The notes beneath the pieces were generated by a model, which saw only the letters and a list, made by a program, of their open reading frames with translations, was not told the DNA's origin and did not search any database. This document shows, in pieces, positions 20,503 through 37,952 of a stretch of DNA of 64,000 bases; positions within the stretch are counted from its first letter, which is position 1; each line of letters begins with the position of its first letter. The position numbers and the translations under genes were made by a program. Source of the DNA: Methylobacter tundripaludum SV96 (GTDB taxonomy: Bacteria > Pseudomonadota > Gammaproteobacteria > Methylococcales > Methylomonadaceae); contig NZ_JH109153.1 in NCBI RefSeq assembly GCF_000190755.2, positions 1,425,872-1,489,871 on the forward strand, given 5' to 3'.

Positions 20503-21369
20503 TTATTGAGGGTAATTATATTGTTGTTGCGGATAGGTTTGCTGCTGAGGGTAACCCTGTTGCTGCGGATAGCCCTGCTGTTGAGGATAACCTTGTTGCT
20601 GCGGAAAGCCCTGTTGTTGAGGATAACCTTGTTGCTGCGGGTAGCCCTGTTGTTGAGGATAGCCTTGCTGTTGTGGGTAACCTTGTTGTTGTTGTTGTTG
20701 TTGTTGTGCAGCTCCCGCATTTTTATTGGCGACAATAGCCAATTCCACCCGGCGATTCTGTCCGCGATTCGCCTCGTTCACATTAGGCACTTTCGGCATT
20801 TTCTCGCCCATGCCTTGCTGGGTGAGACGGGAAGGAGTTACGCCATGTTGAGCCAAATAACTCGAAACGCTGGCCGCGCGCCGTTCGGATAATACTTGGT
20901 TATAACTATCCGAGCCGACATCATCGGTATGTCCGGTGACATTGATTGTAGAGTCGGGATATTGATTCAATACCTTCGCTACCGAATCAAGAGCGCCTTG
21001 GGCTTGCGGCGTTAAAGTGGCCGAATCGAACGCAAAAGTAACGTTGCTCGGCATGGTCAGGTTAAGGGTGTTTTCCGCTGTTCTTTGCACTTCGATACCG
21101 GTACCTTGCAACGACTGCTGCATTTCTTCTTGTTGGTGATCCATATATGCGCCCACTGCCGCACCAACGACACCGCCAGCTAAAGCGCCCAGCCCGGCAT
21201 TTTTAAGATCGTTGCCGCCAAACAGCGTTCCCGCGCCTGCGCCGACCGCCGCACCCAGACCGCCGCCCATGGCCGCCTTACCGAGACTGGATTGCCCGGT
21301 ATAAGGGTCAGTGACACAAGCCGTCAACAGGATTGAGCTTATAGCTATCGTCAATAATTTCTTTTTCAT
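20503..21369 (-). CDS. OmpA-like lipoprotein with glycine zipper and Gln/Pro repeat tail
   Basis: A 288-residue outer-membrane lipoprotein of the YiaD kind. A lipobox (ILLTAC, Cys17) is followed by a glycine-zipper region (residues ~30-80), then an OmpA peptidoglycan-binding domain with NVTGHTDDVGS and ANRGQNRRVEL. The last ~65 residues are about ten copies of the hexapeptide GYPQQQ after a run of eight glutamines; the domain normally ends before this tail. An AAGGA ribosome site precedes the ATG. The tail is encoded by an 18-bp tandem repeat and so could vary in length. Confidence 0.9.
   Translation of the reverse strand: MKKKLLTIAISSILLTACVTDPYTGQSSLGKAAMGGGLGAAVGAGAGTLFGGNDLKNAGLGALAGGVVGAAVGAYMDHQQEEMQQSLQGTGIEVQRTAENTLNLTMPSNVTFAFDSATLTPQAQGALDSVAKVLNQYPDSTINVTGHTDDVGSDSYNQVLSERRAASVSSYLAQHGVTPSRLTQQGMGEKMPKVPNVNEANRGQNRRVELAIVANKNAGAAQQQQQQQQGYPQQQGYPQQQGYPQQQGYPQQQGFPQQQGYPQQQGYPQQQGYPQQQTYPQQQYNYPQ
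20512..20707 (-). repeat. 18-bp tandem repeat coding a (GYPQQQ)n tail
   Basis: About ten 18-bp units alternate synonymous codons and end at a poly-CAA run (20686-20707). They encode the C-terminal GYPQQQ repeats of the OmpA-like lipoprotein. Unit variation is mainly synonymous, suggesting selection for the peptide. Confidence 0.9.
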
Positions 21370-21540: not shown

Positions 21541-21845
21541 CATTGCCATTAAGTTAAACCGAAAATAGTTATAGATGAATGTCGTGGGCGCGAATTTATT
21601 CGCGCTACAGGTGGATTTAAAAGCGCGAATAAATTCGCGCCCACAATAATGCTAAGGACTTCATCAATAATAACTTCCGCTTATGGTTCCCACGTTCTGC
21701 GTGGTAACCCAGTCAGGGACGCTCCGGCGTCCCGAACCGCAGAGCGGTTCAAGCTGTATTCCCACGCAGAGCGTGGGAACGATGAGTTTATGTTTCGGGA
21801 AGTTATTGTCGGCCATATCCTAAATTATTTAACTTAATGGCATTG
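21541..21845. repeat. Nested palindromic block upstream of cydD
   Basis: The outer arms are CATTGCCATTAAGTTAAA (21541) and TTTAACTTAATGGCATTG (21828). Within them lie a GCGCGAAT(T/A)AATTCGCGC-type palindrome pair (21588-21643), then the AATAACTTCCCGA-arm element (21650-21826) that itself holds a GTTCCCACG..CGTGGGAAC palindrome (21684-21781). The block ends only a few bases before the first possible cydD start. The stretch 21370-21540, upstream of the OmpA-like gene, holds a TATAAT-like box (minus strand, 21450-21455) but no clear -35. Confidence 0.75.
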
Positions 21846-21850
21846 ACCCT

Positions 21851-23767
21851 TTGGAGCGTCGGAACGATGCAAAGCCGGTGTGTTATGCTTGTTCATTAAT
21901 ACAACAAGTGGCGAAAAAATCAGTGCGATTAACAGAAACAGACAATCAAGCCTATTTCGATAAAAATAAAGCCCGAGAGAAAACCTGTGCCGTCTGGTTA
22001 AAACAGCAAAGCAAGGCCGTTCGCAAGCCCATTCTCTTTGCCGCAATTGCAGGCATTACCAACGGCTTGGGGGTGATTGTACAATCGGCAGCTCTGGCTT
22101 ATATCCTGCAAGCCGTCATTATCGACAAGCTGCCGTGGGCGTCGATGATTGCGCCATTCATGGTGCTGGCAGCCGTTTTCATATTGCGTAGCGTGTGCGT
22201 TTATTGGCACCAGACAGCGGGATTTGAGGCCGGAGCGCAAGTCAGGGCGTCGGTAAGACAGCAGTTACTCGACAAGTTCTTAACGCTGGGGCCTGCCGCG
22301 ATCAAACAACGGCAAAGCGGTGAGTTGGCGGCCGTTACCTTGGAACAGGTCGATGCATTGGAAAATTATTTTTCGCGTTATCTGCCGCAACAAATGATAG
22401 TCGGTGTATTGCCGATCATCATGATTATCGCGGTCATGCCGATCAACTGGGTGGTCGGCTTGATCTTTTTAGTGACCGGGCCGCTGGTGCCGGTTTTTAT
22501 GGCCTTAGTCGGGATGGGCGCGGCCTCCGCCAATCGCAGCCAGTTTTTGGCGATGTCGAGAATGAGCGGCTATTTTCTGGATCGCTTGCAAGGACTGACC
22601 ACACTTAAATTGTTCGGCCAGGCTACCCAGGAGTTAGTCAACATCAACAAGATTGCCGACGGTTTTCGGGAAAAAACCATGGCGGTATTGCGCATTGCGT
22701 TCTTGTCGTCGGCAGTCCTGGAGTTTTTCAGCGCGATTGCGGTTGCCTTGGTGGCCGTGTATGTCGGTCTGGGCTTATTGGGATTGGCTCATTTCGGCCC
22801 GGCCGAGCATATCAGCTTAAGTGAAGCGCTGTTCGTGCTGTTGCTGGCCCCCGATTTTTTTATGCCGCTCAGGCAATTGGCGATCAATTATCATGACCGG
22901 GCTGCGGCATTGGGTGCGGCTGACGCTATCCTGACGATACTGGAGCAAGATGCCGATGTGGGAACGCTGGTTCCCAAGCTCCTGCTTGGGAACCCAGAGG
23001 GCGAAGCTCTCGGCAACCGCTCCTGCGTTGCTCTACCTCCTGCATCCATGCAAGTCGCAGCTTCGCGAGACGGGAAGCTGGAGCTTCCCTCACCTAGTTC
23101 CCAAGCTGGAGCTTGGGAACTAGCGAATCTCATCGAATTTAACAATATCAGTAAATGGTATGGTCAACGTCAGGTTTTAGCGGACATCAGCCTGAACATT
23201 GCCGCCGGTGAAAAAGTTGCTCTGGTCGGCGAGTCGGGCGCCGGGAAAACGACGCTTTTAAACCTGTTGTTAGGTTTTGAGGCTCCAACAGAAGGCCAAG
23301 TGTTGCTCAATGGACAAACGGTTAACCGCGAATGCGCCGCCAAAGCCATTGCCTGGGTGGGACAAAGCGCCTATATCTTCCACGGCACTATCAAAGACAA
23401 TATCGCGCTGGCCGACCCGGATGCATTAAAACAAAGCATTATTGATGCGGCTCAGGCGGCCGGCGTAACCGAATTCAGCGCGCAATTGCCGGGTGACTTG
23501 CTGACTCCGATTGGCGAGCGGGGCTATGGCCTGTCAGGCGGGCAGGTGCAAAGAATCGCGCTGGCCAGGGCGTTTTTAAAAAATGCCGATATTATCCTGC
23601 TGGATGAACCGACCGCCAATCTCGATGCCGCCAACAAAACGCTGCTGTTGGATGTCATCGATCGATTGTTTGCCGATAAAACCCTGATTATCGCCAGCCA
23701 TGACCCGGACGTGATTCAGCGAATGGACAGGCGGATAGAATTGCAGCAAGGACGGCTGGTGTCATGA
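21851..23767 (+). CDS. cydD: Cysteine/glutathione exporter ABC subunit CydD, with inserted repeat
   Basis: A 638-residue half-transporter: six membrane segments (to ~residue 330), then an ABC ATPase domain with Walker A GESGAGKTT (~460), signature LSGGQ (~560) and Walker B ILLDEP (~580). CydDC exports cysteine and glutathione to the periplasm and is needed to assemble cytochrome bd. Residues ~373-424, in the linker, are translated from a copy of a genomic palindromic repeat (22967-23124) kept in frame without stops. The start is uncertain: TTG 21851, GTG 21908 or GTG 21923, none with a clear ribosome site. It overlaps cydC by ATGA. Confidence 0.9.
   Translation: MERRNDAKPVCYACSLIQQVAKKSVRLTETDNQAYFDKNKAREKTCAVWLKQQSKAVRKPILFAAIAGITNGLGVIVQSAALAYILQAVIIDKLPWASMIAPFMVLAAVFILRSVCVYWHQTAGFEAGAQVRASVRQQLLDKFLTLGPAAIKQRQSGELAAVTLEQVDALENYFSRYLPQQMIVGVLPIIMIIAVMPINWVVGLIFLVTGPLVPVFMALVGMGAASANRSQFLAMSRMSGYFLDRLQGLTTLKLFGQATQELVNINKIADGFREKTMAVLRIAFLSSAVLEFFSAIAVALVAVYVGLGLLGLAHFGPAEHISLSEALFVLLLAPDFFMPLRQLAINYHDRAAALGAADAILTILEQDADVGTLVPKLLLGNPEGEALGNRSCVALPPASMQVAASRDGKLELPSPSSQAGAWELANLIEFNNISKWYGQRQVLADISLNIAAGEKVALVGESGAGKTTLLNLLLGFEAPTEGQVLLNGQTVNRECAAKAIAWVGQSAYIFHGTIKDNIALADPDALKQSIIDAAQAAGVTEFSAQLPGDLLTPIGERGYGLSGGQVQRIALARAFLKNADIILLDEPTANLDAANKTLLLDVIDRLFADKTLIIASHDPDVIQRMDRRIELQQGRLVS
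22967..23124. repeat. Palindromic repeat element inside cydD
   Basis: The arms GGTTCCCAAGCTCCTGCTTG (left) and GTTCCCAAGCTGGAGCTTGG (right) enclose a segment (CTCGGCAACCGCTCCTGCG, CTACCTCCTGCATCCATGCA) whose reverse complement occurs in intergenic DNA at 45034-45105 and 58280-58332. The arms match intergenic copies at 43181 and 53241-53347. In cydD the element adds ~52 residues without shifting the frame. Confidence 0.88.
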
Positions 23768-25488
23768 AAGATTTATGGTTTTTCCTGAAATTATTCAAAC
23801 CGCATAGCGCCTGGTTAGCCGGTGGAATTCTCCTGGCTTTACTGACTGCATTTGCCTCTATCGCGTTACTGACACTGTCCGGCTGGTTTATCAGCGCTTC
23901 GGCGATAGCCGGATTGGTCGCTATTGACGGCAATACGCTGGTCTTCAATTTTATGCTGCCCGCCGCGCAAATACGCGCTTTGGCGATCAGCCGCACGTTG
24001 GGTCGTTACGGCGAGCGGGTAGTGACCCATGAAGCGACTTTTCGGGTATTGGCGGGCATACGCAGCTGGTTTTTCCAGCAGCTTATTCCGTTGGTTCCGG
24101 GGCGTTTGTCGGCTATGCGCAGCGGCGATTTACTGTCACGCATGACGGCGGATATTGACGCGTTGGACGCGCTGTATTTGCGACTGCTGGCTCCTGCTGT
24201 TGTGGCGGCGATTGGCGTAATCGGAGTTACCGTCTTTTTGGCTTTTTATGCACCGGTCATCAGTTTGGCTACCGGTCTTATGTTGATGATCGCCGCGGTG
24301 TGGGTGCCGTGGATTTTTAACCGTCTGGGACGTGCCGGTGCGGAAGAAATCGTGGTATTGGCGGCAAATTTCAGGATTCGGCAACTCGATATGATTCAAG
24401 GTTTGGCGGATTTAATCGCCAACCGGGCCTACGGGCGGTTTAGCGATAAGCTCGGGCAGTTTTCCGATTTGATGATTAACATCCAGCGCCGGAACAACCG
24501 CTTGTCGGCGATTTCATCGGCATTCACCTTATTGTTGTCGCAGCTGACATTGTTAATGGCACTGACGCTTGCGGCGATTTCATTTAAAGACGGCTTGTTA
24601 TCGGGAGCGGATTCAGCCTTGGTCGTTTTTTGCGTGATTGCGGCTTTCGAGTTGGTGACACCCTTGCCGCAAGCCATGCAAATGCTGGCGAAAACCCAAA
24701 AAGCCGCCCGGCGTATCAGGCAGGTTACGGAAATGTCCCCGGCGATTACACCCAGCACGGGCTTTTGTCCCCCTCTCCCTTCGGGAGAGGGTTGGGGTGA
24801 GGGCTTTCAAAGGCCATTGCCGGGCCGTTATGATTTACAGTTAAACGAGGTGAGCTTTCGCTATTCGGATCAACAGGGCAGGGTGCTGAACAATATCAGC
24901 CTGGCTATTCCGCAAGGCGCTAAAGTCGCCATCGTCGGCCCCAGCGGTTCGGGCAAGACCACCTTGTTGCAGCTGATAATGCGTTATTACGATCCTGAAC
25001 AAGGCAGTGTGTTATTGGCCGGACAAAACATCAGGCAATTCGATGCCGACGAATTAATGAGCTGTTTCGGCGTATTGTCCCAGCGCAGCCAGTTGTTTGC
25101 CGCCACTATCAAAGAAAACCTGTTGCTTGCCAAACCGGACGCCACCGCAACAGAACTCAATGCTGCCGTTAAAGCCGCCGGACTGGAAAACTTTATCGGT
25201 TATTTGCCGGAAGGCCTTGAAACCTGGGTAGGCGAAAGCGGCGTCAAAGTGTCGGGAGGGGAAGCGCGGCGTATCGCCTTGGCGCGGCTTTATCTTAAAA
25301 ATGCGCCGGTATTGATTCTGGATGAGCCGACCGAAGGCTTGGACGGCGATACGGAGCGGGATGTCTTCACCGCGCTGGCGGATTTTGCCAGGGATAAAAC
25401 CGTGGTCATGGTAACTCACCGTGAGGCCGGGTTGGGCTGGGTCGATGTCGTCTATGGCATGGAGCATGGGGTTTTGTGTGAACTGTAG
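23764..25488 (+). CDS. cydC: Cysteine/glutathione exporter ABC subunit CydC, with inserted repeat
   Basis: A 574-residue half-transporter partner of CydD: N-terminal membrane domain with SGWFISASAIAG, then an ABC domain with Walker A GPSGSGKTT (~391), signature VSGGE (~496) and Walker B LILDEPTEGLD (~517). Residues ~336-347 (PPLPSGEGWGEG) come from a copy of the intergenic CCCTCTCCC..GGGAGAGGG repeat (24769-24803), again in the linker before the ATPase domain. The start ATG overlaps the cydD stop. The bd oxidase itself is encoded at 38003-41280. Confidence 0.92.
   Translation: MKDLWFFLKLFKPHSAWLAGGILLALLTAFASIALLTLSGWFISASAIAGLVAIDGNTLVFNFMLPAAQIRALAISRTLGRYGERVVTHEATFRVLAGIRSWFFQQLIPLVPGRLSAMRSGDLLSRMTADIDALDALYLRLLAPAVVAAIGVIGVTVFLAFYAPVISLATGLMLMIAAVWVPWIFNRLGRAGAEEIVVLAANFRIRQLDMIQGLADLIANRAYGRFSDKLGQFSDLMINIQRRNNRLSAISSAFTLLLSQLTLLMALTLAAISFKDGLLSGADSALVVFCVIAAFELVTPLPQAMQMLAKTQKAARRIRQVTEMSPAITPSTGFCPPLPSGEGWGEGFQRPLPGRYDLQLNEVSFRYSDQQGRVLNNISLAIPQGAKVAIVGPSGSGKTTLLQLIMRYYDPEQGSVLLAGQNIRQFDADELMSCFGVLSQRSQLFAATIKENLLLAKPDATATELNAAVKAAGLENFIGYLPEGLETWVGESGVKVSGGEARRIALARLYLKNAPVLILDEPTEGLDGDTERDVFTALADFARDKTVVMVTHREAGLGWVDVVYGMEHGVLCEL
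24769..24803. repeat. CCCTCTCC/GGAGAGGG palindrome inside cydC
   Basis: A short hairpin repeat with a GGTTGGGGTGAGGG tail, translated in frame. Related intergenic copies lie at 37808-37904 (two, facing) and 49731-49763. Confidence 0.85.
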
Positions 25489-25630
25489 CCTCATTTAATT
25501 AGGCTTACATTCACTCGATAATTATCGGATGTGAGCAACTAAACACAGCTAAGCCGGGAACAAAAGATATCGTGAACTCAACCACGAAGTGCAATCCCAT
25601 CTATTCGTCAACGCCGTTAAAGGAGGACAA

Positions 25631-28354
25631 GTGCTTGATCTATTTTTTCTAAACTCACTAACCGATATGACTCTTGCATACAACAGGAGTTATAACATTC
25701 CGATGGTGATTGTTTCAGTGCTCATCGCAATTTTTGCGTCCTTCTGTTCGCTTGAGATGGTCGATCGACTGGCGCGTGGCGATCAACGTTATCTCTGGTT
25801 ATCAATCGGTGCATTGATTCTTGGCGGGGGCGTATGGGCCATGCATTTCATCGGCATGTTGGCTTTCCAGCTTGATTGCGAGGTCACTTATGATCCATGG
25901 ATTACCGGCTTATCCGTATTGCCCGGCATTTTTGCAGCAGCCGTGGCGTTAAATATTGTTACCAGCAAAAAGGTCACTTTAAACAAATTACTGTTGAGCG
26001 GCATCGTTATGGCCTCAGGTATCGGTCTGATGCACTACTCCGGCATGGCGGCAATCCGTTTGGACGGGATCTTGCGCTATAACCTGAACCTGTTCATTTT
26101 GTCTCTTGCCGCCGCTGTTTGTTTATCGGTTGCCGCGTTGTCGATCAAGACTTTTCTGTCCGGATTGCCGGGGGTTACAAGTACATTTGTTTCTTCGTTG
26201 ATCGGAGGCATCGTGCTGGGAGGGGCAATATCCAGCATGCATTATATCGCTATGGAAGCGGCGTACTTTGTTCATGCTCATGCTCATGCTCATGCTAATG
26301 GCGATGCTCGCGTCATTGCGGCAACAAGCCCTAACATTCTTGCAATCGCTGTTATTTGTATCGCCGTCTTGCTGATCTTCAGTGGTTTAATGTTTACTTA
26401 CCTGGGTATGAAAATCGCTCATGTTCGTACCCGTATCAATGCCATTCTTGCCTCAACCAGCCAAGGTTTTGTGATGATGGATCGAGACGGCATTATCACG
26501 GAATGTAACCAAGCCATGCTGGTCTTGATGGGCACGGACAAACAGTCACTGGTAGGCAGGTTTTACAGGGGTTTAATCAGTACGGATAACAGCTCCGTGA
26601 TGCAGGCCAATTATCGAATGGAAGCACGGCTGAACCGTCCCGATGGGAGCCTATTGCCTTGTTTGATTGACAGCAATTCAATCACCGACGATAGCGGAGA
26701 AAGAATCTATTCTTTCGCTTTGTTCAGTGACATTAGCCAGCGTATAGCAGACGAGACCGAGCTACGGGAGAGTGAGACACAATTTCGTGCATTACTTGAA
26801 TCGACGCCGGACCCCATGGTGATCTTAAATAGCTACGGTTTGATCGGCATCGTTAATCATCAAGCTGAAGACTTACTTGGATACAGTAAAAACGAGCTAT
26901 TGGGCGAACCCATCGATATTTTATTGACCGATGAATCGCATCATATATTTGCTAAGTTGCGTGAAAATTATATAGGTAATGCCCAGGCCGGGCCGGTGGG
27001 CAAGCAACAAGAGCTAAGGGTTAAAACTAAAGAGGGCCGGGAAATTCCTGTCGAGGTTAGCTTTAGCCCTATCAATACCTCCAAGGGATTACTGATTGCC
27101 GCTGCATTGCGAGATATTAGCCAGCGTAAAATGGCGGAATCCGCACTTGCAAGATCCGAAATAAAGTTTCGCACACTCTATGTATCCACAAGCGAAGCAG
27201 TCATGCTTTGGGACGAACGCGGTTTTTTTGATTGCAATGACGCAACCTTAGCCATATTCGGCTGCGCAACCAAAGAGGAATTTTATACAAAGCAACCCAG
27301 TGACTTTTCCCCTCCTCAGCAGCCATGCGGCGGAAATTCATCGGATTGCTCTAAAGAGGCAATAGCCAAGGCCTTGGAACAGGGAAGCCATAGCTTCGAA
27401 TGGCTGCATCGGCGTATCGATAACGGTAAAGATTTTCCGGCCGAGGTGGTATTAAGTTCTATGGAGTTGGATGGAAAACTTGTGCTTCTGGGCACAGTAC
27501 GGGATATTACTGACCGCAAGCAATACGAAGAAAAACTCCTTCAATTGGCCGAAGCTAAAAGCCAGTTATTGCAATCGGAGAAGATGGCTACGATTGGTCA
27601 ATTGGCTGCCGGCGTTGCCCACGAATTGAACAACCCGATTGCTTTCGTTTATTCCAATCTGGGAACTTTTGAAAGCTATGTTAAGGATATTTTAGAGATA
27701 ACCGCCGCTTGCCAAACCAGCCTCCATCATGACGATCTCGCTAATGTTATCGCGCTGCAAGCAGAAAAGAACTTTGAATATTTGAAGTCCGATATTTTCG
27801 AGCTGATAACAGAGTCAAAAGACGGCATTACACGGATGAGAAAAATCGTAGAGGACTTGAAGAATTTTTCTCGAGTTGGGGAACCGGATTGGCAATCAGC
27901 CGACCTGCAAAAAGGACTGGAATCAACACTGAATATTGTTTGGAACGAACTTAAATATAAATGCGTAGTGATCAAGCACTATAGCGATGATTTGCCCCAA
28001 ATCCGTTGCATTGCTTCGCAACTCAACCAGGTTTTTATGAATTTGCTGGTTAATGCAGGGCACGCCATTGAAAAGAAAGGGGAAATTACCATTACTACGC
28101 GCGTATGCCCAAGCGACAACACGGCGGTCCAGGTTTTGATTACTGACACCGGTGCCGGTATCCCGCCGGAAAATCTCAAGCGGATTTTCGATCCTTTCTT
28201 TACAACAAAACCGGTGGGACAAGGTACCGGTCTTGGTCTTTCGATTACTTGGGGCATTATTGCTAAACATCACGGCACCATTGAAGTGAACAGTACCGTT
28301 GGCATAGGCTCAACTTTCACAATTACATTGCCAGTCGATCAGTACGATGCCTAG
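25631..28354 (+). CDS. MHYT-PAS sensor histidine kinase
   Basis: A membrane sensor kinase of ~907 residues. The N-terminal MHYT domain (~1-240) shows [15 protein letters not shown] and SMHYIAM motifs, thought to bind copper and sense a diatomic gas. Three PAS domains follow (~260-640), then a HisKA dimerisation helix with the phospho-acceptor His in GVAHELNNP (~663) and a HATPase domain with DTGAGIPPE and GTGLGLS. There is no receiver domain. I start at GTG 25631 because an AAAGGAGG ribosome site lies four bases upstream; a GTG 14 codons earlier has none. No partner regulator is adjacent. Confidence 0.9.
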
Positions 28355-37752: not shown

Positions 37753-37952
37753 GCTCTCGTTCCTACGTAGCATGTCACTGCCATTAAATTAAGGATGGAC
37801 AGTACCTTTTCCCTCAGGGAGAAGGTTAGGATGAGGGGATCAAATAAAGCTTTTTGCCTTATTTTTTATTCTCCTCACCCCAACCCTCTCCAGCAGGAGA
37901 GGGGGTTTTTTCTTAATTTAATGGCAGTGACGTAGCATGTGGGAACGAGAGC
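37753..37952. repeat. 200-bp nested palindromic block
   Basis: Outer arms GCTCTCGTTCC and GGAACGAGAGC, then CACTGCCATTAAATTAAG (37776-37793) facing CTTAATTTAATGGCAGTG, then an inner pair of CCTCTCC/GGAGAGG-type repeats (37808-37904). The CATTAA arms match those at 21541-21845. The block fills most of the 343-base gap between HigB and the cydX-like gene; no coding sequence is seen there. Confidence 0.8.

Follow-up and report, generated by a model that had tools for sequence, protein, structure and literature searches.

In CydC, the linker that joins the membrane domain to the ATPase domain very probably holds the decayed remnant of a palindromic element, here called E, and the CydC and CydD linkers appear to be tolerant sites that retain repeats while other insertions into genes are purged. 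We examined the window (the whole stretch of 64,000 nucleotides) from a Methylobacter-type genome with close relatives L037–L045, and collected CydC orthologues from genome contigs and from the family genomes. The features concerned are as follows.

21851–23767, forward strand: cydD, the partner subunit, an open reading frame whose product scores 564 bits with TIGR02857 CydD (cut-off 435).
22966–23126, forward strand: 159-bp repeat (GCTGGTTCCC...GGGAACTAGC) in the homologous linker of cydD, from genome copies and linker alignment.
23764–25488, forward strand: cydC, an ABC exporter subunit (574 aa), the open reading frame that hosts the insert.
24747–24748, forward strand: TA dinucleotide at the putative insertion point, from the alignment of empty and filled sites and the TA flanks of full E copies.
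24749–24811, forward strand: repeat-derived insert in the TMD-NBD linker, what remains of element E, which has lost 12 bp in frame on its left side and is cut short at the right.
24769–24803, forward strand: the core as reported in an earlier note, hairpin CCCTCTCCC-TTC-GGGAGAGGG plus TTGGGGTGAGGG, codons for PPLPSGEGWGEG.
24886–25332, forward strand: intact CydC ATPase domain (Pfam ABC_tran, residues 375–523), directly after the linker.

The cydC product scored 459 bits with TIGR02868 CydC (cut-off 329) and had a match to E. coli CydC structures at E 1e-114. The residues of three ATPase motifs (Walker A, signature and Walker B) were unchanged across 35 aligned CydC, so that the gene has both marks of the equivalog, the TIGR02868 score and intact ATPase motifs. 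Against the relative L037, dN was 0.043 and dS 0.351 (dN/dS ~0.12); CydC is thus under purifying selection and, with its catalytic motifs intact, functional as judged from sequence. Two further explanations were rejected: cydC as a pseudogene by the dN/dS of 0.12, and the insert as an assembly error by its presence in the independent assemblies L037 and L045. Elsewhere in the window we observed an OmpA-like open reading frame with a (QQGYPQ)n tail (20503–21369, reverse strand), a HAHAHAHA codon run (26271–26298) within a sensor-kinase-like open reading frame (25589–28354), and a REPIN-like dimer formed by the inverted pair GGGAGAAGGTTAGGATGAGGG and TGGAGAGGGTTGGGGTGAGGA (37817–37892), with similar pairs elsewhere in the genome.

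The DNA of 24769–24803 (CCCCCTCTCCCTTCGGGAGAGGGTTGGGGTGAGGG) is translated as cydC residues 336–347 and sits after the membrane part and before the ABC_tran domain; the two hairpin arms occupy 24771–24779 and 24783–24791, the loop TTC 24780–24782, and the tail extends to 24803. The 9-mer was found twice in the window, against 0.17 expected by chance. Genome-wide, we found 7 palindromic copies of the core (reversed control, 0) and 29 tail-like matches with at most 3 mismatches (control, 0), counts based on pattern and similarity searches and on 40 stretches; a chance origin is therefore excluded. RNA folding of 24740–24830 predicted −42.8 kcal/mol (z −2.2). Rfam found no family at gathering score over the window, and a literature text search with the core motif yielded nothing relevant, just papers on telomeres and other unrelated subjects. 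The earlier note had described a hairpin repeat translated in frame just before the CydC ATPase domain, and its exact position, translation and genome copies were all confirmed; its extent was not, as the repeat-derived part is longer and the hairpin forms no more than the core of a larger element.

That longer element, E, was revealed by the flanks of the genomic copies around the hairpin core. It measures 107 bp, has the ends TATACT...AGTATA (also written TATACTCGG...CAGTATA), and is present as complete copies in related genomes, two of which (G083:C61:14470-14576 and G015:C70:37077-37183) have TATACTCGGCACGG and CCGTTTGCAGTATA at their boundaries. Six matches span all 107 bp at 83–100%, those beyond the two bounded copies at 83–87%. 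E is predicted to fold end to end as a single hairpin (−46.2 kcal/mol), and its terminal repeats are complementary at 10 of 14 positions, counted by eye; being short, with terminal inverted repeats and without a transposase gene, it is MITE-like in these respects. Frame +1 is open throughout and reads ILGTGTDCGFCPPLPSGEGWGEGFLKSAIHDRLQY. The core alone (positions about 35–70) is far more widespread than full E, and some match to E was present in 82 of the 201 family genomes. A second repeat (GACGACTGCAAGGATGCAGGAGGTAGAGCAACGCA...) was observed nested in the E copies at L162, L167 and L172, with the frame kept, and the same module is found in the cydD insert. The window sequence 24760–24811 (G000:C2:1450631-1450682) corresponds to E positions 26–77 at 94%, and its left flank, 24749–24759, has an element-derived look in the codon alignment with KS41, L037 and insert-less species.

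Comparing CydC linkers among relatives confined the segment to the window's genome, its near relative G162 (the same as L037) and G136 (the same as L045, Methylobacter sp. KS41), the only three of 61 family genomes (match E<=1e-150) with a longer cydC (1722 and 1737 bp versus at most 1677 bp elsewhere). The insert was absent from all other CydC linkers (38 distinct aligned rows, one of which ends before the linker). In the codon alignment the window, L037 and KS41 inserts share one point, after ATT|A, at which several uninterrupted relatives read ATTACC. TA stands at both ends of full E copies and also in the uninterrupted cydC sites, although these terminal bases could belong to E; an outer TA taken as target duplication would give a net gain of 105 bp, or 35 codons. 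The KS41 insert corresponds to E positions 1–69 at 90%, starts at the TA within ATTA, translates as LGTATDCGFCQPFPPGEGWGEG, and has lost the hairpin symmetry. On a CydC tree built without the linker columns, the window groups with G162 (L075, insert) and G042 (L077, no insert), with KS41 distant, and at least three changes in insert state are demanded; the patchy distribution therefore calls for losses, for recombination or for another insertion event. KS41 is also the one genome with the situation that the earlier note had named as evidence against its reading, a conserved segment where the repeat is otherwise lacking, since its single intact tail copy is the one in cydC; this was seen nowhere else. 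Because the KS41 insert is itself a diverged copy of E, it points to an older or transferred insertion rather than an ancestral linker.

The cydD linker contains a separate repeat. The 159-bp repeat had 124 matches in the window's genome, several of them full-length at 91–96%, and the linker of CydC can be aligned with that of CydD, which bears out two further claims of the earlier note: that the inserts occupy equivalent sites, and that they belong to different families, one a remnant of E and the other a high-copy repeat. Across about 39 species surveyed, CydD linkers carried three unrelated repeat families: family a, the 159-bp repeat, in the window, L037 and L039; family b, a GTAGGATGTGC... 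hairpin that starts in cydD with GTAGGATG, of which about 12 species carry all or part and which has 14 matches in the genome of the window and 24 in G174; and family c (GTTCCCACGC...), which occurs in L041 as well as at many other loci. The L044 linker holds part of family a nested within family b, a module that is also nested within E copies. No repeat was detectable in the remaining CydD linkers of these species, KS41 among them. Directly upstream of cydD (21587–21800) we also observed inverted GCGCGAATTTATTCGCGC-type and GTTCCCACG...CGTGGGAAC-type repeats.

We then considered how often repeats lie within genes. Only one of 51 family a/b copies, sampled at 40 places in the window's genome, lay in the interior of a long open reading frame. 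Most of a bacterial genome consists of genes, and insertions inside genes are therefore strongly under-represented; the repeats found there would thus be survivors, among which the CydDC linkers recur. The earlier note had left a choice between linker tolerance and the filtering of chance insertions, and the three CydD families together with the rarity of interior copies make these two sides of one explanation. Of the eight exporter-type ABC proteins found in the window's genome, seven had readable linkers, and obvious repeat linkers were present in CydC and CydD and absent from the other five, so that an exporter-wide tolerance is not demonstrated. One exporter (L228, G000:C1:730344 region) has an odd extra stretch, GSELAFTRRVPGRTDRHEKIL, within its ATPase domain, which is possibly repeat-derived.

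The 35-residue E peptide, searched over 201 genomes, gave 12 copies in open frames of at least 200 aa. Interior copies of E in frame +1 occupy seven genes, namely cydC (three genomes) and the following, named by Pfam or solved-structure matches where available and otherwise by eye.

G071 and G180: SagB-like nitroreductase.
G049: nSTAND1 ATPase.
G110: SbcC.
G015: formate-dehydrogenase/nitrate-reductase-like protein.
G015: 1671-aa protein.
G180: 704-aa protein.

Two further frame +1 cases near an N-terminus (flavin reductase-like, G083; peptidase-like, G049) may precede the true start and were left uncounted. The other two open frames were represented by one gene in frame −2 (a PutA-like N-terminus, in four genomes) and, in frame −0, by a single core-only copy (polyketide synthase), a preference for frame +1 that is suggestive (p about 0.01–0.03, by hand). 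Alignments to solved homologues were gapped at or near the insert in two E hosts, CydC and the formate-dehydrogenase-like protein. E thus shows the property that marks RPE-type elements (see below), a shared peptide in frame inside conserved protein-coding genes. Further repeats were observed in other genes. A topoisomerase III is interrupted by a related core repeat, and the SMC hinge of the window's genome (L026, G000:C1:884783) has in-frame repeats (PSPEGEGW...LLPEGEG). An in-frame core copy lies within the acyltransferase region of a polyketide synthase-like gene (L174, G000:C2:782426-782468), where the strand opposite to that of the repeat is read, as PHPSPLPQGEG. A HypF-like open reading frame (L112, G042, positions 3–1865) contains two separate in-frame repeats; its alignment to a solved homologue is broken off by the first and has a gap where the second lies.

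The inserts have diverged less than their surroundings. Between the window and L037, 1 of 161 bases differed in the cydD insert (P about 2e-8), and between the window and L039, 3 of 161 (P 5e-6), both with flanks differing by 11–12%; in the cydC insert, 2 of 57 bases differed between species (P 0.025). Viewed across three species, the 159-bp cydD insert is ~99% identical and the cydD flanks differ by 11–16%. Insert divergence below that of the flanking coding DNA is not what plain neutral drift following a single old insertion would give, and it counts, like the patchy distribution in CydC, against the reading favored below. Homogenisation by other genomic copies was ruled out as the reason, because those are only about 91–96% like the cydD insert. 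Candidate causes are interspecies transfer, repeated insertion at one site and nucleotide constraint.

This conservation also bears on what kind of explanation the inserts need. It would fit inserts that are functional and kept by selection, with linker length or the Pro/Gly-rich peptide tuning domain coupling or an mRNA hairpin timing translation, and the local RNA does fold better than most shuffles (z −2.2). However, most species keep cydC and cydD without either insert, CydD inserts of different species are unrelated and differ in length, and the KS41 copy lacks hairpin symmetry, so we regard such a function as quite improbable. An unlikely proposal is that linker repeats are kept or re-supplied by nucleotide-level selection, reinsertion or interspecies recombination, and would form a shared pool of linker peptides tuning a respiratory transporter. 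Recombination of cydC or its linker between Methylobacter lineages, carrying one original insertion, has a chance somewhat short of even, and would refine the reading of a decayed E insertion at a tolerant site, not replace it. The patchy distribution, the insertion point and frame that KS41 shares with the window, and the low divergence of the inserts speak for it, whereas the KS41 insert is longer and clearly diverged, and both sides of the insert show ordinary divergence between the window and L037.

The linkers might instead be nothing special, with both partners hit by coincidence among hundreds of repeats. The repeats are indeed numerous, one family alone accounting for the 124 matches, and in-frame repeats also occur in the topoisomerase III, SMC and polyketide synthase of this genome; yet CydD linkers of different species carry three unrelated families, and interior cydD-type copies are rare, so that two in the homologous linkers of one operon would seem unlikely by chance alone. 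We consider coincidence unlikely overall. An ancestral origin of the CydC segment, as a long linker that other species lost and whose likeness to the repeat is convergence or the source of the repeat, is very hard to credit: the segment is present in G162 and in KS41, which has few other copies, but it matches a whole mobile-type element that is also found between genes and in unrelated genes, and it is absent from deep branches of the CydC tree.

We therefore favor insertion into a tolerant linker. E would be a small non-autonomous mobile element of 107 bp with a TA target, which entered the linker between the CydC membrane and ATPase domains in frame. With 105 bp added and one uninterrupted frame, the insertion would have encoded a flexible Pro/Gly-rich peptide, presumably structurally neutral, and left the gene unbroken; later deletions may then have trimmed the CydC insert to about 15 extra residues. 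The unrelated 159-bp repeat would have followed the same course in CydD, at the homologous linker. Insertion of repeats is probably widespread, with purifying selection clearing nearly all of those within genes, and several unrelated families would occur in the CydDC linkers because these are among the few places where repeats survive.

E is a new family of a known phenomenon, with a recurrent site in two paralogous subunits that is unusually clear. Rickettsia palindromic elements (RPE; Ogata 2000), as reviewed in PMC10969869, are about 100–150 bp, lie in frame in many unrelated genes, and each encode a conserved peptide that is predicted to be tolerated by the protein structure. E resembles them in being palindromic, in frame within unrelated genes and in sharing a peptide, but differs in its hosts, free-living gammaproteobacterial methanotrophs, and in its ends. 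R. conorii RPEs, RPE-4 and RPE-6, carry a CGTC tag according to the portion of PMC3733652 used here; E, without this tag and ending TATACT...AGTATA, was not filed as an RPE, a separation based on the described ends. A further difference from RPEs is that several unrelated families use one transporter linker, in both paralogous subunits. The same portion of PMC3733652 reports intragenic GTAG/CGTC REPs in several bacteria, proposes neutrality via flexible linkers or loops, and gives a precedent for recurrent sites, since two Xanthomonas species have different REPs at nearly the same place in recB; it describes no case in which two subunits of a complex are hit at homologous linkers. E is longer than these REPs and lacks GTAG and CGTC tags at its ends, although its core alone is REP-like. 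Enterobacterial RU/ERIC (PMC2759123) are small mobile hairpin sequences with open reading frames, also intragenic, and differ in sequence and hosts, the insert hosts here being conserved enzymes and a transporter.

These findings amount to a natural insertion-tolerance experiment, in which unrelated repeats mark one joint in both halves of an ABC exporter across many species. They add free-living methanotrophs to the hosts of in-frame palindromic elements, of which Rickettsia is the best known, and offer a concrete route by which frame-preserving mobile DNA may add flexible linkers to conserved machines.
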